Source of the DNA: a virus
Strand: one strand, 5' to 3'
DNA length: 64,000 nucleotides
IMG/VR virus record: IMGVR_UViG_3300046703_000247
Coordinates: 1-64,000 of that record
Both the position numbers and the translations under genes were made by a program. The notes under the pieces are model-generated. The model saw only the letters and a list, made by a program, of their open reading frames with translations. It had not been told where the DNA came from and made no database searches. This document shows positions 5,171 through 46,868 of this stretch, one piece after another (the first letter of the stretch is position 1; each line of letters opens with the position of its first letter).

Positions 5171-5227
5171 CCGCAGCCACCAGAGGCGAAACCTGCGGTT
5201 TCTCCCCCGGTACCCCTTCTTCCCTTC
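5171..5227 (-). repeat. Palindromic repeat copy 2 (reverse)
   Basis: GAAACC (5188-5193) and GGTTTC (5197-5202) form the inner stem. CCGCAGCC lies on the left and TTCTTCCCTTC on the right, which is the reverse complement of the forward arms. It lies between the gp4 paralogue A stop and the stop of the minus-strand gene that ends at 5226. Confidence 0.85.
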
Positions 5228-6348: not shown

Positions 6349-6349
6349 G

Positions 6350-23596: not shown

Positions 23597-24064
23597 GTGA
23601 CCCAATTCGAGCGCACCAACGACATGGAACTCGTTAGGAAGATTCTCGCGCATCCCAGGCTGTGGGATCACATGACGGACGACTTCTGTCCGACCCGCGA
23701 AGAGTTCACGCCCGTCAATGACCCGCTGGTCTGGTACGTTCTCGCGACGGATGGCCCTGACGTGCTGGGCTTGTTTCTGTTCAGCCCCCAGAACGGAATT
23801 TGCTGGGACGCACACGTCTGCATACTGCCGCACGCATGGGGAGCCCGAGCGCAACAGGCGGTCCGGGGCGTGATTCAGTGGGTCTTCGACACGACGCCCT
23901 GCCGCCGGATCGTAGCCTCGATCCCCGAGTACAACCGCCTGGTGCTGCGCTTCGCGGAGCGCGCCGGGTTTGAGGTGTTCGGGGTGAATCGGAGAAGTTT
24001 CCAGAAAAACGGCAGGTTGCAGGACCAGATCATGTTAGGAATTTCCAAATCGGAGGTGGTGTGA
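23597..24064 (+). CDS. GNAT-type N-acetyltransferase-like protein
   Basis: The 155-residue product starts at GTG 23597. It shows the GNAT order: N-terminal helices, a central strand pair (VLGLFLFSPQNGICWDAHVC), the acetyl-CoA loop region (HAWGARAQQAVRGVIQWVF) and the last strand/helix (IPEYNRLVLRFAERAGFEVF, then GVNRRSF). Similar small acetyltransferase-like proteins occur in podovirus virion modules. The substrate is unknown; modification of a virion or host protein is possible. Confidence 0.72.
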   Translation: MTQFERTNDMELVRKILAHPRLWDHMTDDFCPTREEFTPVNDPLVWYVLATDGPDVLGLFLFSPQNGICWDAHVCILPHAWGARAQQAVRGVIQWVFDTTPCRRIVASIPEYNRLVLRFAERAGFEVFGVNRRSFQKNGRLQDQIMLGISKSEVV

Positions 24065-25053: not shown

Positions 25054-25072
25054 CTTGAAAGAGGCAATCTTT

Positions 25073-29054: not shown

Positions 29055-32000
29055 ATGCCCCTTACCGATACCCCCGACAGCTTCGTGCCCGACGTTCCGA
29101 CCCCGGAAGAGGTCGAAGCCGAGTTGCGCGCGGCTGCCAAAGCCCACGGCCTCGACGAGGACCTGGCGCTACGTGTGGCCAACCGGGAAAGCCGGCTCAC
29201 GCAGTCCGCCACCTCCCCTAAAAAGGCGCGCGGAGTCATGCAACTGATGCCCGAGACAGCCAAAACCCTGGGCGTCGATCCAGAGGACTGGCAGCAGAAC
29301 ATCCAGGGTGGGGTGAAGCTCCTCAAGAGTAATCTTGACTACTACAAGGGCGACACCAGGAAAGCGCTCGCGGCTTACAACGCCGGACGCGGACCCGTCG
29401 ACAAGTACAACGGCGTTCCCCCCTACAAGGAAACCCAGGAGTATGTGGATAACATCCTCGGCAAGCCCGTAGCCCCGCCGCCGAGTTTCGAGCCGGATCC
29501 GCCCAGCTTCGAAGCGGACCAGCCGGTCACCATCCCCGGCCTACTTAAACCGGGCAATATCGACCTCACCGCCAGGCCCGTTCATAAGAACCCTGATGGC
29601 ACAACCTCAACAGTGCTTTCCATGAGGTTTGGCGAGGATGGCAAGGAAATACTGGTTCCCAAGGTCAGTGAGGATGGGACCTGGATACTGTCCGACGAAG
29701 AGGCGGTCGACACCTACCACAAAACGGGGAAGCACCTCGGGATCTTCAAGGATGTGCCCAGTGCGAACGCCTATGCGCAGCAACTCCACGAAGATTACGC
29801 CTCCGGAAGAATCAAGTTAAAGACCCCGGGGGCCGCTGACCCGCCCAGCTTCGAAGCGGACCAGCCGACTGCACTCCAGGTTCCCGCCCAGATCCCCAGC
29901 CGAGCCGAACTGGCCACGATGGGCGAGCGCTTGGGCGTCCTACGCATGACGCTCGATACTCAGGCCGAGCAGATGGCCCGCAACCGGGCCGCGCTCGAGG
30001 CCGAGGCCCAGCAGTTCACCCCCAAGACCCCTCCCGAGCAACTGGCGGCCTTCGACCAGAAGGTGAAGTTGCACAACCTGGACCTGGCCGAGTTCCAGAA
30101 CGCGGTCGCCGGGCACGCCAAAGACATCGAGGCGTACAACGCCGGGACGGCGGCGTTCAACGAGAACCTTGGGCGCTATGACCAGGCAATGAAGGTGCCG
30201 CCGGGCACCCAACGGACAGGACTCCCAGGAATGCCGCTCACCCGCATGCCGGTGCAGGTGCAGCCGAGCGGGGTGTTAGGCCTGGCTAAAGAGTCGCTGC
30301 CTTGGAAGATTGCCAACACCCAGGCATTCAAGGCGCTGGGATTGCCCACCACCGCCGACGCCTACGACTATTCGGTGGAGGCTGCGAAGAAACTTGTAGC
30401 GAAGGTGCTGGGTGAACCGAGCGAAACCACCGCCAGGAAGCACCCAGGCGTGGCAGCAACCCTCACATTCGGCGCGCGCGTTGCCCGCCTGTTCCCTGAA
30501 GTGGCCGACTTCATCCTGACGCCGGCGGGGACGGCTACGGCCATCGCGACCGCGGTCGCCCCTCCGGCGGTAGTCGCAGGTGTGGGCGCCGCCTTCAGCA
30601 CAGACATCGCCCTGAAGGCGAATGACGCCATCGAAGTAGCCCGGACCAACCCGACTCCCGAGAATATCGGGGAGGCCGTCAAGCTGTCGGCTATGGCTCT
30701 CTTGCCCTTCCTGCGGCCGGCGGCCGAGTTGGGCCGGAAGGTCGAACGCGGGATCGAACAGCACAACGTCCAGGCGGCCCAACTGGTGGAGCGGGAGCGC
30801 ACCCAGGGGTTAGGAAAAGAATGGGGGCAGGCCATCCTTGGGGAAGAGCCGGTCCGCGTCGAGATTGCGGGGAAGTCCCACACTATTCAGGCGCTGGGCG
30901 GGAATCCTGTTGCCGGTAGTGTCAGACCGCGTCCCACCTACCAAGTGGTGGATGATGCCACCGGCAAAGCCGTCTACTCGGGAGAAGCTCCGGCGGTCCA
31001 AGGTTATCTCGAACAGCAGCAGGCAGTTCGAGTCGGCGGGCTCGTAACATCTGTCGACCAGATCTCAGCGCAACTCGATACTGAGTATTCCAAAGCCGTG
31101 GCCGACCGCGCGGTGGCCCAATCGGTTCGGGACCAGATCAGACAACTTCAGAAATTCTCGCCCGAGCAACTGAAGGCCGAGCAAGCCAAGGGCAAGGTCA
31201 TCCTGGACCACGAGGCCGAACTCAACCAAAAAGGCGTAGCGGGGCTCTCGGAAACAGACCTGGTGGAGGTCCAACAGCACCTCCAGATGGTCGATGATCT
31301 ACTCGCCGGGAAGCCCATCAGCGACAACTTTGCCGAACAGGCCGTCAAGGAAGCCGACGCACATATCTCCGAAATTCAGAAGAAACGGGCACAACTCGGA
31401 GCCGAAGGCACGAAGCTCCCACAAGCGCAGCGGCCCGCCGCCCCCGGGCCCGCCGCTCCCGCCGTGATCGCCAAAGGCACCACCGTCGCCGGCGGGAAGA
31501 TCACGGTCACCGAGGTCAAAGGCGGCAAGGTCGGCTTCGAAAAGACCATGCCCGGCGGCCAGAAGATCCGCGGAACCATGCCGATCGAAGCCTTCCGGTC
31601 CCAGTTTCTTGCGACGTCGCAGCCTGTTCAGCCGCAGCCTACTGCTCAGCCGAAGCCTCGGGAGACGGAACCTACGGTTCCTTCTCCCAAACCCACTTTT
31701 TCCCTTTCGGAAGCCGAGCAGGCGCAGTACGACCAGGTCGCGGAGTTCGCCCGCACCGCCGGAAAGCCGCTCACCGACAAGTTGCTTTGGGAGAAGTTGA
31801 AGATTCCGCGCCACGAGGGCGCAAAGATCCTCGCGGTGATGAAGCAGCAGGGAGCGCTGGACCAGCAGGGGCAGCCGCAAGCTCTTTCGCCGCAGCCTGT
31901 TGTTCAACCGCAGCCTCCAGGGGCGAAACCTGCGGTTTCTCCCCTAGCAACCCCTCTTCCCTTGAACGCCGCCCCGGTCGGCCAAGCCTACCAGGGCGAG

Positions 32001-35000
32001 CTGGCGGGCGACTGGTCGCCCTACTACCGGACCATGGCCGAGGCGCAGGCCGCCGGCGCGAAGAACGTGCAACTCGGGGCGGCTCCGGAGGTATGGAACG
32101 GGCAGAAGTGGGCGGGGGCGGTATCAAATGATGCCAAGCAGCAGGCTCAGCCGCAGCCTCCAGGGGCGAAACCTGCGGTTTCTCCCCTAGCAACCCCTCT
32201 TCCCTCCGAACCCCAAACGCCCGCCCTTGAGGCGCTGAAGCGCCAAATGTCGGACTTCTACAGACGGCGCGTGCGCGTGAACGACCGCACCTTCGTGGGG
32301 GGCGTCTACAATCCCAATCGCTCCGAAGAGGAACGCCAAAGCATTGACGCCCAACTAGAAGAGATTGATTCCGAGGCGCGCAGTGTTCTGTCGAAGGTCC
32401 CACAGAACGACTTGCCCGAGCTAATGAGCGCGGACAACCGGATGCGGGTCCTTGAAGGGGACAATCCCCTAACCCGAAATGACAGAGGAGGCCCTGACTG
32501 GGCAGCGCAGGAATGGCTGAACCGGATTGTCGAGGTGACGCCGGAGCGCGCCGCATTGTCTGCGCCGACAAGCACCCCAGCCCCAGCAGGTAAGCAGATT
32601 GCCGCGCCCCAGCCCCCCGCTGTGCGCGCGCCGGCCCCCGCCGAGACTCCAGCATCCTTCGAGCCGGACACACTGCCCAGGAGCCTGGAACTGGAGCAGA
32701 AGCACGGTCTCTCACCCGCCGAGGCAGCCGTCATCAACCATGCGCTCGACCGCCTGCCCCAGGTTCGCAAGGACTACTCCAGCGCAGCGGAGGCACTTCA
32801 GAAGGAAGCCCTGCGGCTGGCGGCGCCGGCGAACGTCCCGCTCGACAAGATCGCCAACATCAAGTTGCTCAAGCGCATCCTGGCGGACTACCTCGACCCC
32901 GAGCAGTTTAGAGCCGCAGAGGCGCAGAACAAGGAACCCTGGCAGATGACGCGGGAGGAGTTCACCGCCCCGGTGCGTGAGGATCTGGCTCGTTGGAATT
33001 CGTCCTTCGATGAGTTGCGCGCCAAGAGAGGCGGGACTCGCGGACAGACCCCAGCACAGGCTCTCTTTGATGCGAAGCAGAAGCACGAAGAGGGAAGAAA
33101 GCCCTACCTCGAACGTATCGCGGAGACAGAGCAACTTCATGAGCGGAACATTCGCCGTGCGGTTGCAGACGGTAAACCCGTTCCGGCCGCAGTCCTAGCC
33201 GAGTACCCCGATCTGAAGCCCGCGCAAGCACTCGACCCCGACCAAGTCTACCGACGCGCACAGGCCGAGATGGAGCGGCGCCATCTGAAGCAGGGGCTGG
33301 AGCAGTTAATCGCCCTCGACCCCGACAACCCGCGTGAAGACGATCTTGGAGTTGGCAACGATCTTGAGGACGTAACAGGAAACCTGCAAAGCATCGGCTT
33401 CTCCAGACCGGAGATCCAGGCCGTACTGGAAGGCCGCCGCCAGCGGCTCCAGGCGCACCGTGAGCAATCCGCGCGCGCGGCTGAAGCCATCAAGCCGGCG
33501 ATGCCTGGGGGCGTGGTCTATGAAGCGGTGGGCAAGGCTGTGGGCGCTTCGCGCGATAAGAAGGACTCCCAGATGTTCGTGTGGCGCACGGACAGCGAGA
33601 AGCAGGGCTACGAGTTCCTGAACGCGCTGGGCAACAACCTCCAATATGGCCACAAGGATCTGCCGGCCGCCATTCGCGCGGTAGCCGAGCAGAACCCAGA
33701 TTGGACGGATCTATCAAAGACGGCTCTCACTGCGCTCGGAAGGGAAGAAGTGGTCTCGGAGAAGAAACCGCAGGTTGCGTCTCCGGAGTCTCAGCCGAAA
33801 GAAAAGCCCACCGAGTACGACTTCGCCTCCACCCAGGTGAACCTCCCGCCGGAGATCGCCCAGGCCATGCAGGAGTTCAACGCCCAGATCCCAGATGAAG
33901 ACCTGGCGGTAGAGGCGGGAGCCAAATACGGCGGGGAGACAGCCGCCAAGGGCCGCGAAGAACAGTCGCACGTCACCCTGCTCTACGGAATCAAATCCGA
34001 GAACCCGGACGCTGTGCGCAAGTTGCTGGAGAACCAGCCGCCCATCACCCTGAAGCTGGGCAAGACCTCGGTGTTCGCAGGAACCGACAACGGCGATGTG
34101 CTCAAAATCGACGTGGAATCAGAGGATCTGGAGCGGCTCAACAAGCTGTTGAAAGACAACCTGGAGTTCACCGAGACCCACCCAGGCTACAAGCCCCACG
34201 CCACGCTGGCCTACCTCAAGGTGGGGAAGGGCAAGGAGTGGAGCGGCAAGGACGTGCCGGGAGTCACCGGGAAGACTGTAACCCTGGACCGGATTGCATT
34301 CTCGGACAAGAGCGGGGAGCAGACATCTATCCAATTGAAAGGTGAGAAGCCGCAGACTACTCCTAAGCCGCAGCCTCGGGAGACGGAACCAACGGTTCCT
34401 TCTCCCAAGCCCGCTTCTTCCCTTTCGGAAATCCCGAAGCCGAAGGCCTACACCTTTGCCAATCACAAGTTCATGTCGGCGAAGGACAAGCAACTCACCT
34501 TCAAGGCGTGGATCACCTTCCTCCGCAACGGGCTACAACAGAAGGACTTCACCAAGCGGCTGTACGAGCAACTCCACCAGCACATGGGCTTCATCGCCCA
34601 CTACAACATCAACGGGTTCTACGAGGAGTACTTCCTGCACGGCGAGGACACCGAGCGGTTCATTCAGCACTTTGACCTGGCCGACCACCGCTACGGTCCG
34701 GACTCCACCAACGGATTCTGGATGAATAGTGACACCGCCAAGGATTTGAACCGCGCCATGGTGGATGAGGCGGCGCCGTATCTGCCCGGCCTGTTGGAGA
34801 AGGCGGCGGCGGGCCAGAAGGCCGAAGACCTGGCGGAAGCGCAACGGCTCCAGGCGAAGCACGGCGCGCCGGCGCCGGCGCCGGTTGTCACCCATAAACT
34901 TCAGGGCGGAGGGATCGTACAGGAGTTGAAGTCTCCGGAATTGCGTTTTCAGAAGAACGACCACGTTCGCTGGACCGACAAAGACGGAAATGCCAAAGAG

Positions 35001-38000
35001 GGATACGTCAGCCGCGTCGAGGGTCACCTGGTTTTCATCGGGACAGAGTCAGATCAGAAGTTCGGGATGTTCCGCCCGGTGATGGCGAGCAAGGTCGAAC
35101 TGATCGAGGATGAGGGCGACACCCCCACTCCGAAAAGGGATGAAGGGGTCGAGGGGAAGCAACCGCAGGTGGCGTCCCCTCGGGCTCCAGCCAAGACAGA
35201 AGCGCCCGCCAAGACCGGAGATATCGAGCGCCAGATCACCGAAGCTGAATCCGACTTGGCCGCCGCCCGTAAGCTCTACGAGGGCACCGAAGACGGAACA
35301 CTCGACCAGGAAGAAGCCATCCGGGAGATGCACCAGGCGCTGGCCGAGGTGAACCGCCTCCAGGCCGAAGCCGCCAAAGAGAACCCGCTCCTCACCGAAC
35401 AGGCCGAAGGCCGCCGTCAGACCATGCCCCCGATGCCCAAGGGCAAGGAGAGCCACTGGCAGCAGTTGATGGACGACTCCTCCGACCTGGGGGCCACCGC
35501 CGGCGAGGAGTACGTCGTTGACTACGGCCTATGGGTCGAGCGCGGCAAACCGGCAGGCAAGGAACCCGAGAAGCCCAACGCCGAGCGTGAGACCTCCATC
35601 GACCGCGGCGAATACCCCAAGGGTTGGCTGCGCCAGGCGGCCGCCGAGTTCCAGACCAGCTTTGATAAGGAAGTTGCCAAGGGGCTGAAGGAGATTGAGC
35701 AGGAGACCGCCAGAAACGCGGCGGGAGCGGCGGCCGACGCGGCGCGCGAGCTCGAGATCCGCAAGGCTGAGATTCAGGACCTGGCCGCCAAGTTGCGCGA
35801 GCACGCGAGCGGCGATCGCACCGACCTGGCGGAGCGCAAGCGGCTCGTCACCGCCGCCCTAGACCTGAAGACCGGCAAGAAGCTCAACGAGGACACCGAT
35901 GCGCTCTGGGAGCAAGCAATCCGCCCGGCCATCGAGGCGATCCGTCGCGCCGCGGTGGACAAGATTGAGGGCAAACAGATCACCCCTGACACCCCTGTCT
36001 GGGAGATGCGACCAGCGCAATACCTGGAGCACCGGCGCGAACAGGCGTTGCAGATTCCAAAGGGCAGCTTCCTCGAGCGCGAGCCCGGGGAGTGGCGCAC
36101 CGAGTTTCTGGTAACGCTGTCCAAGGAGGAACTTGGGGTATTGCTCCGCCTCAACGGTCTCCCCATAAACGGCACCAAAGCCATGATGGTGCAGCGCTTC
36201 CAGGATGCCCGCGCGTTGCGCAACCAGTTCGAGGGCAAGACGGCGGAGCAGATCGAAGAGGAGATGACTGGCGCGGAGATCGACCGCGCGCTGGAACAAC
36301 TCGGGGCGGGGAAGTACGGCAACAAGCTGACGCGGGCCGGGACAATCCTCGGCACCATTCAAAGCCAGCGTAAGAAGGGCGAGAGCGTCCTGGCTGAATT
36401 CAACTATCAGCGCGCCATCTATCGGGCAGTGGGGAAAGGCCAGCCGGTCCCCGAGGAGATCCAGAAGAAGTACGGCGCCTTCCAGACAATCGAGGATGTT
36501 GCCGCCGCAATTCCAGAAGAGGGGACCGCGGAACCAGACAAGAAAATCAGGATTGGCGACCGGGTCACATGGAAGGGATTCGACAAGGTTGTACGGGTCG
36601 GCACGGTCAGCCACATTCGCCACCACATAGAGAACGGCCGGGAGCGCAATACGCTGGAGATTGACGGCGACGACCATGGCCGCTACTTCCCTGACGACGT
36701 CGACGTCACGAAAGTAGCCGCCGAAACCAGGGATGAAGGGGGCGCGGGGGAAGCAACCGCAGGGTTGCGTCCCCAGCAGGCTCCGGCAGAAACACCCGCC
36801 GAACCGACGGAATACGCCTTGTCGGGCGACACCTACCGCTTCAAGAACATCATCCGGGCCCAACTGCAAGGCAAGTGGAACGGCAAAGAAAAGGTGTGGA
36901 TTATCCCCGCCAGCCAGGTGGAGGCAGCCCGGAAACTCTCAAAGAAGATCGAGGTGAAGCCCTTCGGGCAGGTGAAGACAGCCCCCGCCCAGCCGCCCAT
37001 GGACGAGCAGACCGCCTCGGCCGTCATCCAGGATCTGGTCAAGACCATCTCCGAAGCCCAGGAAGAGGTGCACTTCGCGCAGAACGACAAGGACACCGAC
37101 AAAGGCGCAAGCACTCAGGCAAACGAGGCCAAACTGGCTACGGCCGTCAAGGATCTGCGGAGCGTGGTAACGGAAGCCAAGAAGTACTTGGACTTTCCAA
37201 ACGCACCGGAGAGCGATAGGGAAGCTTTGCGGACTCAACTCTACCGCGCCGAGCAAAACCTCAGAGGATATGAGCGCCCCGGCCCCTCCATCAACCAGAC
37301 CATCGAAGCCGAGAAGTACGTTGAGAAACTGACGGGTCCCGAGCAGACCTACGCGGCGAAGTACAAGGACTACTGGCTGGGAAAGATCGCCGAAGAGCCT
37401 CCCTACGTCGGCGTCCACATCAACCCGCTGCGCGCTGAAGGCATCCGGACACATCTAAAACACGTCCTCGGAAAACGGGTAGAGGTTACCGGCGGGCCGG
37501 AAGCTACGAAGCCCGCGACCGAGACGCGCGTCCCCAAGTGGGGCAACCTCACAGAATTGGAAGCTGAGCTGCTCCGCGGCCTCAATAGACCACAGCCTAT
37601 TGGTGATCTCTTTGATTCGATCGGTCAGCATTGGCCTGATTCCGAGAAAATCAAGGTGCTTCATGCACTCGACAGCCACGGTCTGGTAAAAGCCATCCAC
37701 GGCGGCGGGTACGAGCGCACCGAGGCGGGCACCGTCGCAATCGGCAAAGGACCGGCGGAAGCGTATCTTCCGAAGGGGACCGCGCCGGCGCCTGCACCGA
37801 AGGGCAGCTTCAAATACGAGTTCCAGGTGCACGGCGAAGGCGGCAAGTGGAGCGACAACGCCCTGCGCTTTGCCACCGAGAAGGAAGCCCAAGCAGCCGG
37901 AGATGAGCACCTTACGCGCTGGACCATGGCCGATGCGGTCCGGGTGGTGCCGTCCGAGGATGCGCCTAACTACCGCTGGGACGACGACCAGTACAAATCC

Positions 38001-41000
38001 GTCCGGCTGTCCGGGAAGGAAGAGGGGGTGCAGGGGGAGAAACCGGAGGTTTCGCCTCCTGAAGCGCCGGCCCCAACAGTTGAGGAAGCCCTGGCTATCA
38101 TCGAGAGAAAAGGCTCAGCCCATTGGGAAGACACTACCATCAAGGTGGTTCCACACCCATCGGTTACCGGGATGGTCGACACCGATGGAACCAGCTTCTC
38201 AGTAGAAGTGACCCGGAATGGGGAGCGCAACATCATCGAAGCCGCCCCTCTGTCCCTGGAAGATGCCCAGAAAAAAGCTGCCCGGATGCTGGTGGAACGC
38301 GCAAAACTTCCGCCACTCGGCAAAAAACAGAGCATAATGGAGGCGGAGCAACCCAATGCCCCAGGTGGAATACAGCAGCCCGTTCGTTCAACTGGTGCTC
38401 GACCAGTGGAAGAACAACTTCCCGAAGGAAGCCGAGCGCCTGGAGAAGCAGGGAACGCTCCTCAAGTGGGCCGAGTACGCGACCAAGCGGGCGGGCGCGG
38501 TACACGAGCAGGCGCTGGCAAACGGAGCGAGCTACACCCAGGCGGAGGATCTGTCCCTACCCGAGTGGGGCCAGCCACCGACGTTGAACGATCCCTCCCT
38601 CCCCGTTCCCGAGACGTAGCCAACAACCGCCACGAGCACGACTTCCGCATTCCGGACCGGCGTGTCATTTCCGGATCCCCTGAAACCCGGGCGAAAGCCA
38701 ACCTCGCAGCCATCCGCCTGTTGCGCGAAATCCAGCAAGACAACCGCGCCGCCACGGTCGAGGAGCAGGAGACCCTGGCGCGGTACGTCGGATGGGGCGC
38801 CGTTCCGCAGTTGTTCGCCGGCAACACCTCAGAGTGGAAGGCGCTCCAGAACGACCTGCGCAAGTCGTTGAGCGAAGAGGAGTACTCTCTCGCCCAGAAT
38901 TCCACCAAGAACGCCCACTACACGGGAGATGAGGTGGTGGATGCCATGTGGGCCACGCTCGAGCGGATGGGCGCCACGCCGGGCATGAACTGGCTGGAGC
39001 CCGCGGTGGGAGTCGGGAACTTCTTCGGCCGGCAGCCGGAGGCCTTGCTCGCGGGTTCGCGACGAATCGGAATCGACAAGGATTCGCTTTCCGCACAGAT
39101 TGCCACGCTGCTCTACCCGGACTCGGGCATCCAGAACCAGCCCTTCGAGGAAGCCGAACTCCCCAAGGACTACTTCGACGCCGCCATCTCAAACGTGCCC
39201 TTCGCCGATGTTAAGGTGCACGACCCTGAATTCCGCAACAAAATATACCTGAGATCGAGCGTTCACAACTACTTCTTTGCAAAGACTTTGGGCAATGTGA
39301 AGCCGGGCGGCATCGTGGCCTTCATCACTTCTCACTACACCATGGACGCCTACGGCCAAGAGGCCAGGGCTTTCCGGAAGTGGATCGCTTCACAGGCCGA
39401 TTTCCTCGGCGCCGTGCGGCTGCCCTCGAACGCCTTCATGCAGAGTTCGGGCACCCACGTCATCACCGACATCGTCTTCCTACAGAAGCGACTGCCCAAC
39501 GCTGCGCCCGCCGGCGAGGATTGGGTGGAGACGGTGAACAAGACGCTCTCCGGGCAGTGGGGCGTGTATCCCGTAACCACCAACGCCTACTACAAGCGGC
39601 ATCCCGAACACCTTCTGGGAGAGGAGAAGCTGAAACGCGGCCAGTTCTCAGACCATGATTACTTTGTGGAAGGGGAACTGACGCCGGCCGCCCTGAAGAA
39701 AGCCCTCTCCAAGATCCCCGGCCAGTTCCAGCAATGGCAGACAGGGGCGACGGCCCCCCGGCGGATCGCCCTGCGGGAGATTCGCGCAGAATCCGACAAG
39801 GCCAAGCTCGGAGCCCTCTTCTTTGATGACAAGGGCGACCTGTTCCGCAAGACCAGCAAGGGATCCGCTGAGCCGATTCCCGTGAGTGCGGATGCCAAGC
39901 AGAAGATCAAGGGTCAGTTGGAATTGCGCAACGCCTACGCGGAGCTGCTCGAGCTCGAGCGCAAGGATGCCCCCGAGGCGGCGCTCGATAGCGCCCGCAA
40001 GCGGCTCAACCGGATGTACGACAAGTACGTCGCCGAGCACGGCCCCTTATCGAGCCGAAGCAACACGGAGCTGCTCAAGGGAGATCCGGACGCCCCGCAC
40101 GTCGTCAGCCTGGAGCGCAAGTGGGACCCCAAGACGAAGACCGCCGAGAAGTCCCCGATTTTCAAGCGCCGCATGCTCCAGCCGCCCAAGGCCCTGGAAC
40201 ACACCGCCGACGCCAAAGATGCTCTTTACGTCTCCCTGAATCAGACCGGGCGGATTGACTTCGAGCGCATGGAGAAGTTAACCGGCAAGGGAAGCACCCA
40301 ACTCCAGAGCGAGTTGAAGGGCATCATCTACCAGGACCCGACCAGCCGCGAGTGGGAGATGGCCGACGAGTATCTCTCCGGAGCGGTGCGCACGAAGTTG
40401 CGCCAAGCCCAGGCCGTGGCCAAATTGGAGCCCGAGTTTGAGGAGAACGTCAAGGCGCTCGAACAGGTGCAGCCCGACGACATTCCGCCGGCACAGATCA
40501 GGGTCGCACTGGGCGCAACCTGGGTTCCGATCGATATCTACACCGAGTTTGCAACGCACATTCTGAACAGCTCGACCGACACCCCGGTCCGCTACGTGGC
40601 GAACCACTGGCACGTGGATGAGCCCTACTACAGTTCCGCCCGGTCCAAGAGCCAGTGGGACACCGGCCGCATGAATGCCCACCAGATCCTGGAAGGCTCC
40701 CTCAACATGACGCGCCTCAAGGTCCACGACTGGGACAGCGATAAGAAGCGGGATGTTATCAACCAGCCGGAAACGGCCGCGGCGCAGGCCAAGCAGCAGG
40801 AGTTGCAGACCTACTTCGAAAGATGGCTTCTATCTACCGAGGCCGCGCGCACGGACCAGATGGTGCGCCTCTACAACGATGCGAAAAACGACCTCCGCCT
40901 CCCGACCTTTGACGGCTCCCACCTGACCCTTCCGGAAATCGTTCGGGATCCGCAGATTGTGACGGGCGGCGATCTGGCACCCCACCAGAAGAATGCCGTT

Positions 41001-44000
41001 TGGCGCGGCATCAAGCAGCGCAATGTGCTCCTGGCCCACTGGGTAGGAACCGGCAAAACCTTCGAAGGCATCACCATCGGCATGGAGCTGAAGCGGCTGG
41101 GTCTCATCCAGCGGCCGATGTACGTGGTTCCGAACGCCACCCTGGGCGGTTGGCAGTTGCAGTTCAACCAACTCTACCCGCAGAAGCGCGTCATTGTTTT
41201 CAGCGAGAAGGACCTGGAGAAGGAAAACCGGCGGGCCACTATCGCGCGCATCGCGGGCGGCGAGTGGGACGCGGTTGTCATGCCCGAGTCCAGTTTCCGG
41301 TTCATCCGCACCGGCGACGAGATCTTCAACCAGCATTTTCAGCGTCTCCAGGAAGAATTGGACACCTCCATCCAAGAGGCTGAGGGCGCCGGGATGGACA
41401 CCCGGATGATTAAGCGCATGGAAAAGATGCGCGACAAGCTGCTCACGGCCCTGCAGGATAAGCGCAACGCGGAGCGGCAGGATCAGACCATCATCTGGGA
41501 GCAGTTGGGGATCGATTGGCTGTTCGTGGACGAATCCCACCACTACCGCAAGTTGGGGTTCTCAACCAAACAGCAGAACATCGCCGGCATCGATGTGAAC
41601 GGCAACCAGATGACGTTCGACCTGCTCATGAAGATGCGGCACGTCCAGACGACCGGGCGCGGAGTGGTCTTCGCCACGGGTACACCGATTGTCAACACCA
41701 TTGGGGAAATGTACTCTCTGATGCGCTACCTGATTGAGCCGGAAATGCAGGCGCGCGGCATCGGCCGCTTCGATGAATGGTCGGCCGACTACGCCCGGAC
41801 GGTCCCCGTGTTCGAACCGAAGGTGGAGGGTGGCGGCTACCGGATGAAGGACCGCTTCGCCCGCATCGTCAACATCCCCGAGTTGGCGAACCTGTTCCGC
41901 TCCTTCGCCGATGTGGTCACCAATGACATGGTAGACCTAAAGATCCCGGGTTTGGCGGGAGGGGAACGCAAGAGCATCCTGACGGACTTGAGCGACGAGC
42001 AGACTCAATATCTGGAAGAAGATCTGCGACCCCGCGGGGCCGCTATTCGCCACAACCCCCGGGATGCCATGCCGGACAACATGCTGGCTGTCTATACCGA
42101 CGCCGGCAAGATGGCATTGGACATCCGGACGGTAATGCCGCACGCCAAAGAGGACCCCGGCAGCCGGCTGAACAAAGCCGCCGAAATCATCTTCCGCGAC
42201 TGGCAGGACAGCGCGAAGACGAAGGGCGTACAGGCCATATTCTGCGACTGGGGCAAGCCCAACAGCGCGCGCCCCCTTGCGGATCGCGGGCAGTTCTCGG
42301 TGTACGACGAGCTGATTCGAAAGCTGATTAAAAAAGGCATCCCGCGCGAGCAGATTGCCACTATCTATCAGGCGAAAGGGAAGGACCAGCGGGCCCGGCT
42401 CTTCCAGCAGGTGAACGAGGGGACCATCCGGATCATCCTCGGTTCCACGAAGAAGCTCGGTGAAGGCGTAAACATTCAGGAGCGCCTATATTCCCTTCAT
42501 CACCTGGACCTGCCGCACACGCCCTCGGAACTAGACCAGCGCGAAGGCCGCGCCCTGCGCCAAGGGAACACCAACCCCGACGTGCGGGTGTACTACTACA
42601 TGACCCGGGGCTCACTCGACGAAATGAAGTTCGCCAACGTCCTGCGTAAGGCGAAGTTCATCCTGGCCATGATGCAGGGCAAGGCCACGGTACGCGAGGC
42701 CGACGACGTGGGCGGTATGATCCCCTCTCTTGAGATGTTCCAGGCGGCCACCTCGGGGGATCCGCGCGTGCTGAGGAAGATGGAGGTTGACGCCGAAGTA
42801 GCGCGCCTCGAGGCCATTCACTACGCCTGGCGGAATCAGCAATGGGACGAGCGGCGCCAGTTGGCGGACCTGCCTGGCAGAATCAGTCGCTTTGAAACTA
42901 CCATCTCCAATTCCCGAAGTGACATCGCCCTGCGGGACGCGCACCTGCCGGGGGTGTGGTCGGTCCGCGGGCAGACCTATGAAGGCAAAACTCCGGAAGC
43001 GGCGAAGGCACTTGCCGAGTACTCCAACAGCAGGCGAAGGGAGCATGACGCGGATCTGAAAACGGAGATGGCCAAGGCTATAGCGGAAGGCGGTGAAGAC
43101 GCCAAGAAGGTCCGCGCGCTACAGAATCGAGCCTTTACAGAAGCGGGGAAGCGCTTTCCTCCCGAGATCATCGCTGAATACGCCGGTTTCAAGATCCGGT
43201 TTGATCCCATTGATGGGGCAATGACCATCGTTGGCGAAGGGTCCGCATACGGGATGGAGCGGCAGGACACCGCGACAGGCACGCTCGCGAGCGCAGCCTA
43301 CTTCATTCACCACCATTTTGAAAAGGCCATCACCAGTGCCGAAGAGGACATTGCCCGCGCCAGGCGCGACGAGGAACAGTTGCAGATCTCTGTCGGAAAG
43401 TCCTGGCCCTATCAGAAGCAGTTCGACAACCTGGTTGCCGAGCAGGAGACCCTGACTCACGATTTGGGCGGCGATCACGGAGACCCCGGCGCCGCTCTGC
43501 TCGAGGATGGGGAGGAAATAGAAGACAAGCGGGTGGAAGCCGAGGAGACGGCAGAGTCTGGAGACGAGGCCCAGCCGGAGCAGCCGCACCCAACCACACC
43601 CAATCCACCTACGCCGGGCCGGCGGCCGGGAGCAGCTACGCAATCCCGCCGCTCCAGCCAGGCCGGCGCGGCCAGCCTCGATCTGCTCACCCTGGGAGCG
43701 CCCAAGTTCATCCAAGAGGATGTCGCCCCAGCCCTCGGCAGGGTCGCCCAGAACTTTGTGGCGGTCAAAAACGAGATCTTCACGATTATCGCCCCGGCCG
43801 CTCGCGGGCCCGCCGCCAAACAAACTGCCCTCTCCGTGCGCTACCGGGCGGCCGAGTTGGCCCAGAAGACGGACCGTGCCCTGGCCGCCCTCAAGGAAAC
43901 CCGCCGCTACTTCGACTCGCTGCCCGAGTGGAACCGGTTGGAGTTCATGGACCGCATCGAAAACGGCCAGCAGCAGATCTATCCACAGGAGGACGCGATT

Positions 44001-46415
44001 GCTGAGGTCTTTCGCGAGATGCTCGACGGCCGCCGGCAGGATGTGCAGGATTTGGGAACCGGAAAACTTGAGAACTGGATCGAGAACTACTTCCCACACA
44101 TCTGGGAGGACCCCGAAAAGGCCACCAAGTTCGCCGCCGACTGGCTCGCAAAGCGCCCGTTCGAAGGAAAGAAAGCGTTTCTCAAGAAGCGCAAGATCCC
44201 TACTATTCAAGAGGGCATGAACGCCGGGCTCGTGCCGGTCTCAACCAACCCCGTCGACCTGGTCCTCATGAAGGTCCGGGAGATGGACAAGTACATCATG
44301 GCCCACAAGGCCCTCGGCGATCTGAAGGACATGGGCTTTCTGCCATTCGTTTCCTCTTTCGACAAACTCCCGGAGGGTCACAAGTGGATCGATGACCGGG
44401 TCGCCACGGTCTTCGGGCCACCCACCGTCACAGTGAAAGAGGCCTTCGATCAGCAGTTGAGCGACCGGCTGAACCAGTTGGCCGACGCCCTCGGCATCAA
44501 ACACGAGCGCAAGGTCCAAATCGGCGGTCAGCGAAGCGGGTATGCCGAAAAAGCCAGCGGCAAAGTGGTGACGCGCTTCGCCTCCCCCGAGAGCGTGCTG
44601 ATCCACGAGATCGGCCACCAGTTGGAGTGGAAGTACAACCTGCTCTCCCTGCTGAAAGACCGCGACTTCCCGGAGCGCACCAAGGAACTGCGCGCGCTGG
44701 CGGACCTCCGCTATGAGGGGGACCCCGACGTCGCCGAATCCTTCAAGAAGTACGTGCGCCGGAAGGACGAGAAGATCGCCAACGCGGTGATGGCGGTGCT
44801 GTACGCGCCGGAGAAAGTCAAAGCCGTGGCGCCCAACACCTGGGATTTTCTACGCGATGAGCTGTGGCATATCCCCGCGTTGCGGCCACTGTTTGACATC
44901 AAACCTTCCCTGGTGCTCGGAGCCCGCACAGCGGAAGTGCCGGTTGGTGGGCTGGTGATTATTGGGAGGTACGCGGCGCCTGAGCCTGCCGCGCGCGTGC
45001 TCAACAACTACCTCTCTCCGGGCCTGCGGGACAGGAGCATGCTATTCCGGTCCTACCTGGGGGCGGCCAACGTGCTGAACCAGTTCCAATTGGGTTGGAG
45101 CGCGTTCCACTTGGGGTTCACCAGCATGGATGCGGCGGTTTCGAAGTTCGGCCTGGGGATCTACCAACTGGCCCACGGTCATCCGCTCGAGGCCTTGGGT
45201 TCCATGGCGCTCACTCCCGTGGCTCCCTTCACCAACATCCTGCACGGGGACAAAATCCTGAAGGAATGGGATCATCCGGGAACCCAGAGCGCACAGATTG
45301 CTGAACTGGTCGACGCCATGGTCCAGGCCGGCGGCCGGGCCCACATGGACAAGTTCTATGAGACCCAGATCAGCAAGCGGATGACAAACACCATGCGCGG
45401 TGCCCTTCAGGCGTGGCAGGGCGGCAACTGGGTGGGCGCTGGGGCACGAATCGTGGGAGCTGGGCTGCAACTGCCCTTCGCCCTCACCGAGCAGGCTTCT
45501 CGCCCCATCATGGAATGGCTGGTTCCACGTCAGAAGATGGGCGTCTTCGCGGACATGGCGCGATTTGAACTGGATCGCCTTGGAAATAATGCAACCGAGC
45601 AGGACAAGCGGGCAGCCCTCGCCAAGGCCTGGGATTCGGTTGACAACCGCATGGGCCAACTCGTCTACGACAACCTCTTCTGGAACAAGGTCACCAAGGA
45701 CCTGGCCATGGGTTCGATCCGGTCGGTAGGTTGGAACGTCGGAACAATCCGGGAACTGGTGGGAGGCGCCGGAGATACCGTGGTTGCTCTCGGGGGCGCC
45801 CTCGGCGGGAAGAAGCCCGAGATGACCTGGCGCATGTCCTACCTGATTGCCCTGCCGATCGTCGTCGGGATTCTGGGGGCCATCCTTTATTACCTGTTCA
45901 ACGGCAAGGCACCCGAGAACCTGCGCGACGTATATGCCCCGCGGACCGGTCTCAAGGACAAGTCTGGGATGCCCGAGCGGCTGATGCTGCCGAGCTACAT
46001 GAAGGACGTGATCCACTACACCAAGGAACCCGTCCGGACGGCCACCAATAAAATCCATCCGCTGCTCACGCTGATCGCCGACACGCTCACCAACGAAGAC
46101 TTCGCGCACCGAAAGATTCGTGATCCCAAGGACCCGCTCGAGAAGCAGCTCGTTGAATTGGCGGACCACGTTGCCACGCAATTCGTCCCAATGGCCTGGC
46201 GGGGCTGGGTGGACCCCGGCAAGCGGCGCCCGCAGGCCAACTGGACCGAGGAATATCTGCCGTTCGTCGGCATCACCCCAGCACCGAAGGCCATCAAGGA
46301 AGGCGGAAACCAGCCGGCCACCGCCGCCCCGAACCTCCGCCGCATGTTGAGCGCCCCGGCCTCGGGCTACCGTGGCGGCTCACTCAAGCAACTCGGCCGC
46401 CCCGCCGGCTACTGA
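29055..46415 (+). CDS. Giant polyvalent virion protein (5,786 residues)
   Basis: Domains in order: lytic transglycosylase (residues ~35-135, catalytic Glu45 in NRESRL); phage 'GNIDL...SDEEA' domain (~165-260); hydrophobic segment (~486-522); 2H phosphoesterase (His1639 in HVTLLYG, His1715 in HATLAYL); a module also known as a stand-alone family (~1796-1900); SAP-like (~2355-2390); N6-adenine methylase (LEPAVGVGNFFG ~3314, NVPF at 3380); Snf2-type helicase (GTGKT with Lys4001, DESHH from Asp4159, QREGRALRQGN ~4495); zincin (HEIGH, His5184-His5188); membrane segment (~5594-5617). This matches the polyvalent/DarB-like proteins injected to protect incoming DNA. Eight repeat copies encode linkers at 31649-38072. 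Confidence 0.88.
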   Translation: MPLTDTPDSFVPDVPTPEEVEAELRAAAKAHGLDEDLALRVANRESRLTQSATSPKKARGVMQLMPETAKTLGVDPEDWQQNIQGGVKLLKSNLDYYKGDTRKALAAYNAGRGPVDKYNGVPPYKETQEYVDNILGKPVAPPPSFEPDPPSFEADQPVTIPGLLKPGNIDLTARPVHKNPDGTTSTVLSMRFGEDGKEILVPKVSEDGTWILSDEEAVDTYHKTGKHLGIFKDVPSANAYAQQLHEDYASGRIKLKTPGAADPPSFEADQPTALQVPAQIPSRAELATMGERLGVLRMTLDTQAEQMARNRAALEAEAQQFTPKTPPEQLAAFDQKVKLHNLDLAEFQNAVAGHAKDIEAYNAGTAAFNENLGRYDQAMKVPPGTQRTGLPGMPLTRMPVQVQPSGVLGLAKESLPWKIANTQAFKALGLPTTADAYDYSVEAAKKLVAKVLGEPSETTARKHPGVAATLTFGARVARLFPEVADFILTPAGTATAIATAVAPPAVVAGVGAAFSTDIALKANDAIEVARTNPTPENIGEAVKLSAMALLPFLRPAAELGRKVERGIEQHNVQAAQLVERERTQGLGKEWGQAILGEEPVRVEIAGKSHTIQALGGNPVAGSVRPRPTYQVVDDATGKAVYSGEAPAVQGYLEQQQAVRVGGLVTSVDQISAQLDTEYSKAVADRAVAQSVRDQIRQLQKFSPEQLKAEQAKGKVILDHEAELNQKGVAGLSETDLVEVQQHLQMVDDLLAGKPISDNFAEQAVKEADAHISEIQKKRAQLGAEGTKLPQAQRPAAPGPAAPAVIAKGTTVAGGKITVTEVKGGKVGFEKTMPGGQKIRGTMPIEAFRSQFLATSQPVQPQPTAQPKPRETEPTVPSPKPTFSLSEAEQAQYDQVAEFARTAGKPLTDKLLWEKLKIPRHEGAKILAVMKQQGALDQQGQPQALSPQPVVQPQPPGAKPAVSPLATPLPLNAAPVGQAYQGELAGDWSPYYRTMAEAQAAGAKNVQLGAAPEVWNGQKWAGAVSNDAKQQAQPQPPGAKPAVSPLATPLPSEPQTPALEALKRQMSDFYRRRVRVNDRTFVGGVYNPNRSEEERQSIDAQLEEIDSEARSVLSKVPQNDLPELMSADNRMRVLEGDNPLTRNDRGGPDWAAQEWLNRIVEVTPERAALSAPTSTPAPAGKQIAAPQPPAVRAPAPAETPASFEPDTLPRSLELEQKHGLSPAEAAVINHALDRLPQVRKDYSSAAEALQKEALRLAAPANVPLDKIANIKLLKRILADYLDPEQFRAAEAQNKEPWQMTREEFTAPVREDLARWNSSFDELRAKRGGTRGQTPAQALFDAKQKHEEGRKPYLERIAETEQLHERNIRRAVADGKPVPAAVLAEYPDLKPAQALDPDQVYRRAQAEMERRHLKQGLEQLIALDPDNPREDDLGVGNDLEDVTGNLQSIGFSRPEIQAVLEGRRQRLQAHREQSARAAEAIKPAMPGGVVYEAVGKAVGASRDKKDSQMFVWRTDSEKQGYEFLNALGNNLQYGHKDLPAAIRAVAEQNPDWTDLSKTALTALGREEVVSEKKPQVASPESQPKEKPTEYDFASTQVNLPPEIAQAMQEFNAQIPDEDLAVEAGAKYGGETAAKGREEQSHVTLLYGIKSENPDAVRKLLENQPPITLKLGKTSVFAGTDNGDVLKIDVESEDLERLNKLLKDNLEFTETHPGYKPHATLAYLKVGKGKEWSGKDVPGVTGKTVTLDRIAFSDKSGEQTSIQLKGEKPQTTPKPQPRETEPTVPSPKPASSLSEIPKPKAYTFANHKFMSAKDKQLTFKAWITFLRNGLQQKDFTKRLYEQLHQHMGFIAHYNINGFYEEYFLHGEDTERFIQHFDLADHRYGPDSTNGFWMNSDTAKDLNRAMVDEAAPYLPGLLEKAAAGQKAEDLAEAQRLQAKHGAPAPAPVVTHKLQGGGIVQELKSPELRFQKNDHVRWTDKDGNAKEGYVSRVEGHLVFIGTESDQKFGMFRPVMASKVELIEDEGDTPTPKRDEGVEGKQPQVASPRAPAKTEAPAKTGDIERQITEAESDLAAARKLYEGTEDGTLDQEEAIREMHQALAEVNRLQAEAAKENPLLTEQAEGRRQTMPPMPKGKESHWQQLMDDSSDLGATAGEEYVVDYGLWVERGKPAGKEPEKPNAERETSIDRGEYPKGWLRQAAAEFQTSFDKEVAKGLKEIEQETARNAAGAAADAARELEIRKAEIQDLAAKLREHASGDRTDLAERKRLVTAALDLKTGKKLNEDTDALWEQAIRPAIEAIRRAAVDKIEGKQITPDTPVWEMRPAQYLEHRREQALQIPKGSFLEREPGEWRTEFLVTLSKEELGVLLRLNGLPINGTKAMMVQRFQDARALRNQFEGKTAEQIEEEMTGAEIDRALEQLGAGKYGNKLTRAGTILGTIQSQRKKGESVLAEFNYQRAIYRAVGKGQPVPEEIQKKYGAFQTIEDVAAAIPEEGTAEPDKKIRIGDRVTWKGFDKVVRVGTVSHIRHHIENGRERNTLEIDGDDHGRYFPDDVDVTKVAAETRDEGGAGEATAGLRPQQAPAETPAEPTEYALSGDTYRFKNIIRAQLQGKWNGKEKVWIIPASQVEAARKLSKKIEVKPFGQVKTAPAQPPMDEQTASAVIQDLVKTISEAQEEVHFAQNDKDTDKGASTQANEAKLATAVKDLRSVVTEAKKYLDFPNAPESDREALRTQLYRAEQNLRGYERPGPSINQTIEAEKYVEKLTGPEQTYAAKYKDYWLGKIAEEPPYVGVHINPLRAEGIRTHLKHVLGKRVEVTGGPEATKPATETRVPKWGNLTELEAELLRGLNRPQPIGDLFDSIGQHWPDSEKIKVLHALDSHGLVKAIHGGGYERTEAGTVAIGKGPAEAYLPKGTAPAPAPKGSFKYEFQVHGEGGKWSDNALRFATEKEAQAAGDEHLTRWTMADAVRVVPSEDAPNYRWDDDQYKSVRLSGKEEGVQGEKPEVSPPEAPAPTVEEALAIIERKGSAHWEDTTIKVVPHPSVTGMVDTDGTSFSVEVTRNGERNIIEAAPLSLEDAQKKAARMLVERAKLPPLGKKQSIMEAEQPNAPGGIQQPVRSTGARPVEEQLPEGSRAPGEAGNAPQVGRVRDQAGGRGTRAGAGKRSELHPGGGSVPTRVGPATDVERSLPPRSRDVANNRHEHDFRIPDRRVISGSPETRAKANLAAIRLLREIQQDNRAATVEEQETLARYVGWGAVPQLFAGNTSEWKALQNDLRKSLSEEEYSLAQNSTKNAHYTGDEVVDAMWATLERMGATPGMNWLEPAVGVGNFFGRQPEALLAGSRRIGIDKDSLSAQIATLLYPDSGIQNQPFEEAELPKDYFDAAISNVPFADVKVHDPEFRNKIYLRSSVHNYFFAKTLGNVKPGGIVAFITSHYTMDAYGQEARAFRKWIASQADFLGAVRLPSNAFMQSSGTHVITDIVFLQKRLPNAAPAGEDWVETVNKTLSGQWGVYPVTTNAYYKRHPEHLLGEEKLKRGQFSDHDYFVEGELTPAALKKALSKIPGQFQQWQTGATAPRRIALREIRAESDKAKLGALFFDDKGDLFRKTSKGSAEPIPVSADAKQKIKGQLELRNAYAELLELERKDAPEAALDSARKRLNRMYDKYVAEHGPLSSRSNTELLKGDPDAPHVVSLERKWDPKTKTAEKSPIFKRRMLQPPKALEHTADAKDALYVSLNQTGRIDFERMEKLTGKGSTQLQSELKGIIYQDPTSREWEMADEYLSGAVRTKLRQAQAVAKLEPEFEENVKALEQVQPDDIPPAQIRVALGATWVPIDIYTEFATHILNSSTDTPVRYVANHWHVDEPYYSSARSKSQWDTGRMNAHQILEGSLNMTRLKVHDWDSDKKRDVINQPETAAAQAKQQELQTYFERWLLSTEAARTDQMVRLYNDAKNDLRLPTFDGSHLTLPEIVRDPQIVTGGDLAPHQKNAVWRGIKQRNVLLAHWVGTGKTFEGITIGMELKRLGLIQRPMYVVPNATLGGWQLQFNQLYPQKRVIVFSEKDLEKENRRATIARIAGGEWDAVVMPESSFRFIRTGDEIFNQHFQRLQEELDTSIQEAEGAGMDTRMIKRMEKMRDKLLTALQDKRNAERQDQTIIWEQLGIDWLFVDESHHYRKLGFSTKQQNIAGIDVNGNQMTFDLLMKMRHVQTTGRGVVFATGTPIVNTIGEMYSLMRYLIEPEMQARGIGRFDEWSADYARTVPVFEPKVEGGGYRMKDRFARIVNIPELANLFRSFADVVTNDMVDLKIPGLAGGERKSILTDLSDEQTQYLEEDLRPRGAAIRHNPRDAMPDNMLAVYTDAGKMALDIRTVMPHAKEDPGSRLNKAAEIIFRDWQDSAKTKGVQAIFCDWGKPNSARPLADRGQFSVYDELIRKLIKKGIPREQIATIYQAKGKDQRARLFQQVNEGTIRIILGSTKKLGEGVNIQERLYSLHHLDLPHTPSELDQREGRALRQGNTNPDVRVYYYMTRGSLDEMKFANVLRKAKFILAMMQGKATVREADDVGGMIPSLEMFQAATSGDPRVLRKMEVDAEVARLEAIHYAWRNQQWDERRQLADLPGRISRFETTISNSRSDIALRDAHLPGVWSVRGQTYEGKTPEAAKALAEYSNSRRREHDADLKTEMAKAIAEGGEDAKKVRALQNRAFTEAGKRFPPEIIAEYAGFKIRFDPIDGAMTIVGEGSAYGMERQDTATGTLASAAYFIHHHFEKAITSAEEDIARARRDEEQLQISVGKSWPYQKQFDNLVAEQETLTHDLGGDHGDPGAALLEDGEEIEDKRVEAEETAESGDEAQPEQPHPTTPNPPTPGRRPGAATQSRRSSQAGAASLDLLTLGAPKFIQEDVAPALGRVAQNFVAVKNEIFTIIAPAARGPAAKQTALSVRYRAAELAQKTDRALAALKETRRYFDSLPEWNRLEFMDRIENGQQQIYPQEDAIAEVFREMLDGRRQDVQDLGTGKLENWIENYFPHIWEDPEKATKFAADWLAKRPFEGKKAFLKKRKIPTIQEGMNAGLVPVSTNPVDLVLMKVREMDKYIMAHKALGDLKDMGFLPFVSSFDKLPEGHKWIDDRVATVFGPPTVTVKEAFDQQLSDRLNQLADALGIKHERKVQIGGQRSGYAEKASGKVVTRFASPESVLIHEIGHQLEWKYNLLSLLKDRDFPERTKELRALADLRYEGDPDVAESFKKYVRRKDEKIANAVMAVLYAPEKVKAVAPNTWDFLRDELWHIPALRPLFDIKPSLVLGARTAEVPVGGLVIIGRYAAPEPAARVLNNYLSPGLRDRSMLFRSYLGAANVLNQFQLGWSAFHLGFTSMDAAVSKFGLGIYQLAHGHPLEALGSMALTPVAPFTNILHGDKILKEWDHPGTQSAQIAELVDAMVQAGGRAHMDKFYETQISKRMTNTMRGALQAWQGGNWVGAGARIVGAGLQLPFALTEQASRPIMEWLVPRQKMGVFADMARFELDRLGNNATEQDKRAALAKAWDSVDNRMGQLVYDNLFWNKVTKDLAMGSIRSVGWNVGTIRELVGGAGDTVVALGGALGGKKPEMTWRMSYLIALPIVVGILGAILYYLFNGKAPENLRDVYAPRTGLKDKSGMPERLMLPSYMKDVIHYTKEPVRTATNKIHPLLTLIADTLTNEDFAHRKIRDPKDPLEKQLVELADHVATQFVPMAWRGWVDPGKRRPQANWTEEYLPFVGITPAPKAIKEGGNQPATAAPNLRRMLSAPASGYRGGSLKQLGRPAGY
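31649..31710 (-). repeat. Palindromic repeat copy 12 (reverse, in frame)
   Basis: The inner stem is GGAACC/GGTTCC. It is read in frame in the giant gene as RETEPTVPSPKP plus TFSLSE, a Pro/Thr-rich linker. Confidence 0.85.
31908..31963 (-). repeat. Palindromic repeat copy 13 (reverse, in frame)
   Basis: The inner stem is GAAACC/GGTTTC and the outer AGGGG/CCCCT. It encodes PQPPGAKPAVSPLATPLP. About 55 nt are identical to copy 14. Confidence 0.88.
32151..32207 (-). repeat. Palindromic repeat copy 14 (reverse, in frame)
   Basis: It is the same sequence as copy 13 over about 55 nt, 243 nt further on, and is read in the same frame. This indicates a recent duplication. Confidence 0.88.
33739..33796 (+). 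repeat. Palindromic repeat copy 15 (forward, in frame)
   Basis: The inner stem GAAACC/GGTTGC is imperfect and the outer is CGGAGA/TCTCCG. It encodes REEVVSEKKPQVASPESQ just before the 2H phosphoesterase domain. Confidence 0.8.
34367..34428 (-). repeat. Palindromic repeat copy 16 (reverse, in frame)
   Basis: The inner stem is GGAACC/GGTTCC with an AA centre. It encodes PRETEPTVPSPKP plus ASSLSE, nearly the same peptide as copy 12. Confidence 0.85.
35133..35192 (+). repeat. Palindromic repeat copy 17 (forward, in frame)
   Basis: The outer stem is GAGGGGA/TCCCCTC (perfect) and the inner GCAACC/GGTGGC (one mismatch). It encodes DEGVEGKQPQVASPRAPA. Confidence 0.8.
36728..36787 (+). repeat. Palindromic repeat copy 18 (forward, in frame, shifted frame)
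   Basis: The inner stem GCAACC/GGTTGC and outer GGGGA/TCCCC are both perfect. It is read in a different frame from its neighbours (GEATAGLRPQQAPA). Confidence 0.82.
38012..38072 (+). repeat. Palindromic repeat copy 19 (forward, in frame)
   Basis: The inner stem is GAAACC/GGTTTC with a GGA loop. It encodes KEEGVQGEKPEVSPPEAPA before the linker leading to the methylase region. Confidence 0.8.
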
Positions 46416-46451: not shown

Positions 46452-46868
46452 ATGCTCCCCAGCCGAAAGCTGATCGCCTTCTTATCGCTCTACGAGACCC
46501 TGGACCCCCAGAAGTTGTTGCAGGTCACCGCCGGCCTGAATCACCTGGTCACAGCCCCCTTATCGCGCCACCAGTTCGACGCCTTAGTCTCATTGACGTG
46601 CAGCATCGGGGTCTCGGACCTGCGCACTTCGAACCTGCTTTACCAGATTAATCTGTCGAATTGGGAAGCCGCAGCAAAGGAGTGGAAGCGCTGGCACTGG
46701 TGGCAAGGGGTACCCCACCTAGCCGACGACCGGCGCGCGGCGGAACTGAAGATCTGGGAGCAAGGCTGGCCCGTCAGTAAATCGAAACGAAAGGAACGAC
46801 CATGCCAAAAGACCCGACCTACCACAAGGCCGCAAGCGAAACGCGGTTGCGGATCCGCCACGCAATAA
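46452..46868 (+). CDS. Lysozyme-like (GH24-type) protein with a degenerate active site
   Basis: The 138-residue product matches the C-terminal lobe of phage lysozymes (LSRHQFDALVSLTCSIGVSD, then DDRRAAELKIWEQG). In the N-terminal part, VTAGLNHL aligns with the usual TIGYGH-type segment, but the space from Glu15 to Thr26 is 11 rather than 15 and Gln20 stands where the catalytic Asp should be. It is therefore probably inactive or repurposed. The last ~25 residues overlap the next gene in another frame. Confidence 0.65.
   Translation: MLPSRKLIAFLSLYETLDPQKLLQVTAGLNHLVTAPLSRHQFDALVSLTCSIGVSDLRTSNLLYQINLSNWEAAAKEWKRWHWWQGVPHLADDRRAAELKIWEQGWPVSKSKRKERPCQKTRPTTRPQAKRGCGSATQ

Follow-up and report, generated by a model that had tools for sequence, protein, structure and literature searches.

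A single phage gene of 5,786 codons stands directly ahead of an endolysin gene, and it raises the question of what a protein of this size does for its virus. The window in which we analysed it covers bases 1 to 64,000 of an IMG/VR virus record that is 83,233 bases long. The product belongs, as an unusually large member, to a known class: the polyvalent ejection proteins of DarB type found in podoviruses with P22-like heads. Our analysis indicates that it is quite probably the last ejection protein of such a podovirus, enlarged by cargo and packaged in the virion, with its two ends used for delivery and host-side cargo lying between them.

A single open frame

The frame starts with ATG and contains no internal stop (Table 1). 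When the sequence was replaced by first-order Markov versions of itself, the longest open run was 435 codons, and the probability that 5,786 codons would stay open by chance is very small (ln P ~ -130). Codon position 2 had the lowest GC content in each 300-codon block of the gene, and coding periodicity was even along the whole frame. Because the codon-position GC pattern is uniform, and because collinear homologues of 5,579 and 6,205 codons are present on independent contigs, a misassembled frame is very unlikely.

An earlier note on this DNA had described one long frame that filled more than a quarter of the window. We found that this is correct: the gene accounts for 27% of the window's length and for 21% of the whole record. 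The note had also placed the product among the larger phage proteins, and this agrees with the 5,007 aa of Pavtok gp27, which was named the longest known phage protein in 2021 (PMC8402733). We rejected the idea that it is the largest phage protein, because a relative of 6,205 aa is encoded on a different IMG/VR contig (G002).

The chain combines disparate activities (SLT transglycosylase, 2H phosphoesterase, methyltransferase, SNF2 helicase, and zincin), as described for polyvalent proteins (PMC5512222). These domains had all been listed in the note, together with a SAP domain and membrane segments. The SAP-like motif scored under the Pfam cut-off, and we do not claim it. The membrane segments were reduced to one strong helix (aa 5597-5615), and aa 496-514 form a weaker hydrophobic stretch.

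Table 1. Positions in the window of the giant gene, its parts, and its neighbours
Feature	Coordinates	Strand	Evidence or remark
Head closure protein Hc3	17285..18979	+	phrog_578 4.1e-104
Acetyltransferase-like head morphogenesis protein	23597..24064	+	phrog_651, phrog_1249
DNA ejection protein	24066..24926	+	phrog_598 1.1e-23; weak T7_gp14
440-aa ejection-cassette protein	25055..26377	+	59% to L098 counterpart
518-aa ejection-cassette protein, adjoining the giant gene upstream	27497..29053	+	36% to L255 and 41% to L098 counterparts
Giant ejection/polyvalent protein	29055..46415	+	5,786 aa, about 636 kDa
SLT lytic transglycosylase domain, aa 25-129	29127..29441	+	PF01464 4.8e-21; phrog_342 1.2e-23
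30-nt direct repeat in linker DNA	29496..29867	+	copies at 29496 and 29838, 97% identical
Domain common to podovirus DNA transfer/minor structural proteins, aa 162-262	29538..29840	+
Conserved block without known domain, aa 703-1020	31161..32114	+	40% to G001/L098
Pro-rich linker repeats	31630..34445	+	98-nt (31630, 34348; 85%), 59-nt (31904, 32147; 98%)
2H phosphoesterase domain, aa 1575-1763	33777..34343	+	HVT at 1639, HAT at 1715
Conserved block, aa 1944-2049, candidate SH3-like by eye	34884..35201	+	65% identical to G001/L098
SAP-like motif, aa 2354-2385	36114..36209	+	Pfam 22.6 bits, cut-off 23.9
Conserved block, aa 2587-2647 (GDTYRFKNIIRAQLQGKWNGKEKVWIIP)	36813..36995	+	conserved against relatives
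DarB-type methylase-SNF2 helicase block, aa 3114-4811	38394..43487	+	phrog_10089 'DarB-like antirestriction' 1425 bits
C-terminal module, about aa 4870-5786	43662..46412	+	common to polyvalent proteins with other cargo
Zincin metallopeptidase within the module, aa 5124-5295	44424..44939	+	HEIGH at 5184; an insertion by alignment
Transmembrane helix within the module, aa 5597-5615	45843..45899	+	conserved in relatives
Endolysin, directly downstream of the giant gene	46452..46868	+	phrog_7, phrog_10457

Position at the end of the ejection cassette

The genes for Hc3, the acetyltransferase-like protein, the DNA ejection protein, and two larger ejection-cassette proteins lie on one strand and are followed by the giant gene and the endolysin gene. 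Small open reading frames (ORFs) are interspersed among the ejection-cassette genes upstream. The giant gene starts one base past the stop of the preceding 518-codon gene. In the E. coli phage Bas106, the order is Hc3, tail needle, head morphogenesis, DNA ejection, a 'released upon infection' protein, and an 830-aa DNA transfer protein, the last of which is in the slot equivalent to that of the giant gene. The two orders are parallel. The giant gene therefore takes the place of the final ejection gene and, as in a P22-type cassette, comes last after Hc3 and the DNA ejection protein. It also lies near virion structural genes, which is a described property of genes for polyvalent proteins (PMC5512222).

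The portal, scaffold, and P22-type coat (major head protein) genes lie in the last part of the record (G000 77387-82140; L002 13387-18140). Vibrio phage VvAW1 has a similar portal and coat, and its coat gene is annotated as P22 coat. Since this head-gene block runs on into the tail genes that open the window, we think it probable that the record is a near-complete genome in circularly permuted form.

Several other genes of the window were noted. An adaptor/stabilisation-type related pair (4372-5055 and 5548-6348, + strand) is a tandem duplication; the same family is present in VvAW1 and in L255, which has the duplication with three copies. A protein with Laminin_G_3 and DUF2341 (6320-7471, + strand) is encoded among the tail genes and is probably a sugar-binding tail or fibre protein. 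A serine recombinase/DNA invertase (55245-55907, + strand; phrog_125, phrog_95) may serve for integration or for switching tail fibres. On the minus strand, 563 residues of a 604-aa DNA methyltransferase (60033-61847) align over only about 220 positions of the phrog_67 profile, the surplus being a large insertion that separates its first methylase motif from its last. The product of 62047-63021, also on the minus strand, strongly matches phrog_2045 (280 bits), whose function is not known.

The N terminus

The SLT domain is an entry enzyme. The profile that it matches, phrog_342, represents a T7-type internal virion protein with an endolysin domain, and the region is 52-53% identical to the N termini in L098 and L255. 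The domain that follows (aa 162-262) is about 50% identical to Bas106, SPN1S, and other podovirus proteins. The giant protein aligned with the Bas106 DNA transfer protein at 40% identity over 150 aa (E 1e-25).

The cargo region and its 2H domain

The cargo region is rich in Ala and Pro, and its conserved blocks are joined by linkers, several of which are repeated in the DNA. A single-sequence scan of IMG/VR with this region gave no matches. We suspected by eye a HARP-type domain at aa 2587-2647; a PDB search with it was matchless, and we do not claim it.

The 2H domain matched phrog_755 (2e-8), and domain-wise AlphaFold modelling confirmed the assignment: the model had a pLDDT of 92.2, and all of its Foldseek matches under E=0.001 were 2H-fold proteins. 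Across 48 relatives, the two HxT motifs keep both histidines and the first threonine without exception, and the second threonine almost always. Most of the 60 loci checked for this domain, by a great majority, carry it in long ORFs, and about 10 carry it in ORFs near 200 aa.

Which substrate would this domain act on? Iyer et al. (2017) predicted that such polyvalent 2H domains are RNases or destroyers of signal nucleotides (PMC5512222). By sequence, the domain is closest to the anti-CBASS protein Acb1; structure does not settle the substrate. The best sequence-profile match in the PDB was Acb1 of Burkholderia phage BCSR5 (9q2g, E 8.3e-9), with which the domain shares the 2H fold and the HxT/HxT tetrad. 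In contrast to Acb1, which is a small free protein, the domain is embedded in the giant chain, and its Pfam score was under the curated Acb1 cut-off (PF23474; 16.9 versus 27 bits). The domain might instead process or repair RNA ends, like LigT or 2',3'-cyclic phosphodiesterase (CPDase), and leave CBASS signals alone. The VIA-align Z scores of the model were greater for CPDase (15.9) and LigT (15.2) than for Acb1 (12.6), and there was a weak TIGR02258 match. However, the Acb1 score is lower in part because the Acb1 structures are shorter, plant CPDase ranked below Acb1 by profile (1.6e-5), and an association of polyvalent 2H domains with RNA ligases was not seen (PMC5512222). We give the RNA-end reading somewhat less than an even chance. 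If an Acb1-like domain is indeed present in this probable virion protein, a signalling-based defence could be disarmed at entry.

The methylase-helicase block

The DarB-type block matched Eco57I, SNF2, and Helicase_C in Pfam, and TaqI, EcoKI M, and ISWI in the PDB. It is thus built as a TaqI/EcoKI-like adenine methyltransferase fused to an SNF2 helicase, as in the DarB type. The helicase motifs are present (Walker A GTGKT at 3998, and DESH). Methylase motif IV reads NVPF at 3380, not NPPF. We rejected the reading that the methylase is dead, because the variant is common to 31 of 97 relatives. The LPD36 GXG(G/A/S) motif, which usually lies ahead of the methylase and is present in 54 of 63 relatives, is missing, and the giant protein reads VISGSPE. 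Therefore, we do not call the block a DarB orthologue. With the core, a single-sequence scan of IMG/VR gave no matches, and an alignment-based scan gave 277 relatives. DarB-like giants are encoded downstream of virion genes in VvAW1, BcepIL02, PEp14, LASTA, and Mwe-JY07.

The C-terminal module and its zincin

From aa 4716 onward, tblastn found no match in 50,697 phage records. The C-terminal module, roughly 870 residues at the end of the chain, had no match in Pfam or PHROG, no sequence relative in the PDB, and no PDB fold with E<0.001. The LPD38 C-terminal domain (PF18857), which is present in the relative L012, was unmatched in the giant protein. In IMG/VR, the module was found at 7 loci by a single-sequence scan and at 137 loci by an alignment scan. 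A further source was bacterial genomes and MAGs of several phyla (22 loci). The AlphaFold model of the module (pLDDT 82) is largely helical. Its best fold matches in BFVD come from proteins named for large-polyvalent-protein domains, of which they are C-terminal pieces (E ~1e-10, TM ~0.44). The tail is therefore likely to be a diverged version of an already known type of C terminus and not a new fold. We compared the module by hhalign with the Bas106 protein, the L098, L031, and L113 tails, and the LPD38 tail of L012, and these weak comparisons, in which the partners were single or three sequences, showed no link. We therefore assign the tail its role by position, not by homology.

In the 85 loci checked, the module forms the C-terminal end of the ORF, and 0 to about 3,900 residues precede it. 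The cargo ahead of the module is SLT, ddrB-ParB, LPD5, LPD1, and MuF_C in L092, and GGDEF, InPase, and RadC in L097; L221 has SLT and ART-PolyVal there. L253 is cargo-free, with SLT and the same module alone in 1,437 aa. Its gene order is Hc3, DNA ejection, a 375-aa protein, and then the SLT-module gene, which is the same slot as that of the giant gene. In L216, L219, L191, L056, and L089, a DarB-type block is joined to the window-type tail, most of these without zincin.

The alignment places the zincin as an insertion at one point of the module. Its HExxH motif is present in 41 of the 85 module loci, a sample ranked by similarity to the zincin-bearing giant, so the true share may be lower; L234 has HExxH without the insertion length. 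The giant might be a polyprotein, a precursor that the zincin or a protease of the phage divides into individual virion proteins and effectors. The intact HExxH motif and the long Pro-rich linkers with DNA repeats fit this reading, and P1 DdrB is cleaved before packaging (reviewed in PMC5512222). However, the zincin sits inside a conserved module, HExxH is absent from 44 of the 85 loci, including the DarB-bearing L089 and L056, and the N4 virion RNA polymerase has a zincin yet is packaged uncut (PMC5512222). Since the zincin belongs to the module and is missing from about half of the module relatives, these proteins as a whole cannot depend on being cut by it. We regard a polyprotein as unlikely.

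Exchange of cargo and tails

The closest relatives found are those of the IMG/VR contigs G001 (L098), with 5,579 aa between stops, and G002 (L031), with 6,205 aa. They are collinear with the giant protein and share its N terminus (48-55%), several cargo blocks, and the DarB block. Their C-terminal tail differs from that of the giant protein, with no detected relation, and the same tail is present in G003. L098 has the 2H domain at 65% identity; L031 has no detectable match to it. Thus, on sequence comparison, cargo and tails are swapped between giant proteins that share other parts. Together with the SLT-plus-tail protein of L253, this tail exchange marks natural module boundaries.

Packaging and a model of delivery

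Packaging, which we infer from synteny and from the virion proteomics of the relative JC1, is well supported indirectly. Very large putative ejection proteins have to be unfolded, at least in part, to fit through the conduit (PMC8402733). Passage of a chain of about 636 kDa through a short tail, presumably unfolded, is a mechanical puzzle. A contrary reading is that the giant protein is not injected and that its cargo works mainly in the cell that makes the phage, or late in infection as a cytoplasmic enzyme. This would suit a phage that is known from a metagenomic record alone and whose genome also encodes a methylase as a free protein. However, injection is indicated by the position of the gene as the last of a P22-type ejection cassette, by the N-terminal SLT domain, and by the domain at aa 162-262 that is common to podovirus DNA transfer proteins, and the JC1 homologue is found in virions (PMC9144972). 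We consider the non-injection reading highly improbable. An assembly or frame artefact behind the gene, to which a single metagenomic record might lend itself, can practically be dismissed in view of the uniform codon periodicity and the homologues on independent contigs.

The sequence itself shows the frame, the domains, the conserved catalytic residues, the gene slot, and the exchange of modules; we infer ejection and every enzymatic role in the following model of a cargo-carrying last ejection protein. The giant would be packaged in the head and would leave ahead of the DNA or with it. The SLT and ejection-type domains would assist in opening the peptidoglycan and take part in the trans-envelope delivery step, and the helical C-terminal module, with its one transmembrane helix, may serve as a delivery or anchoring tail. 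Once inside, the DarB-type adenine methylase and SNF2 translocase would track along the incoming DNA and shield it from type I restriction, and the 2H phosphoesterase would cleave defence-related nucleotides or RNA ends. Once the protein is packaged or delivered, the tail-inserted zincin may cleave the chain and free its parts.

The earlier note had expected several anti-defence activities to be delivered at once if the protein is packaged and injected. This overshoots: the candidates are only the methylase-helicase, for which P1 DarB is the precedent, and possibly the 2H domain, and the SLT, SAP, and zincin parts do not count among them. More tentatively, and with considerable doubt, one may picture a two-ended podovirus injection chassis, an SLT head with interchangeable tails, in which anti-defence cargo is swapped via repeated linkers, so that the giant would deliver ready-made countermeasures against nucleotide signals and restriction in one molecule, ahead of all phage gene expression. 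The locus offers a testable picture of injected multi-enzyme proteins, with fixed delivery ends and exchangeable cargo.

Comparison with known systems

Close counterparts of the giant protein are the DarB-like giants of Lessievirus and its relatives (JC1 gp69, 4,515 aa; BcepIL02 gp70; PEp14; Pavtok gp27, 5,007 aa). These have a late-gene position past the head closure and ejection genes, an N-terminal transglycosylase, and a methylase-SNF2 dyad that is 35-39% identical over about 1,450 aa. JC1 gp69 was found by mass spectrometry in CsCl-purified virions, with 51 unique peptides and second by score (PMC9144972). The window protein differs in being about 800 to 1,300 residues longer, in having the 2H domain, and in its C-terminal module, unmatched in the phage records searched.

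P1 DarB has the methyltransferase-SNF2 dyad of the DarB family (PMC5512222) and is a head-packaged antirestriction protein, with about 40 copies per virion, that inhibits EcoK and EcoB (PMC9024508; PMC5512222). However, it is about 250 kDa, whereas the window giant adds SLT and is without the LPD36 GXG motif. The Bas106 DNA transfer protein shares the gene slot and a domain of about 100 aa at about 50% identity, but it is far shorter, is without the DarB block, and has a C terminus that is not detectably related.

The polyvalent class, the DarB dyad, embedded 2H and zincin domains, and giant size in podoviruses have already been described (PMC5512222, PMC9144972, PMC8402733). What is new is the protein itself, which exceeds the longest of 2021, its unusual combination of a DarB block with a zincin-bearing tail, the cargo-free L253 counterpart in the same slot, and the exchange of tails.
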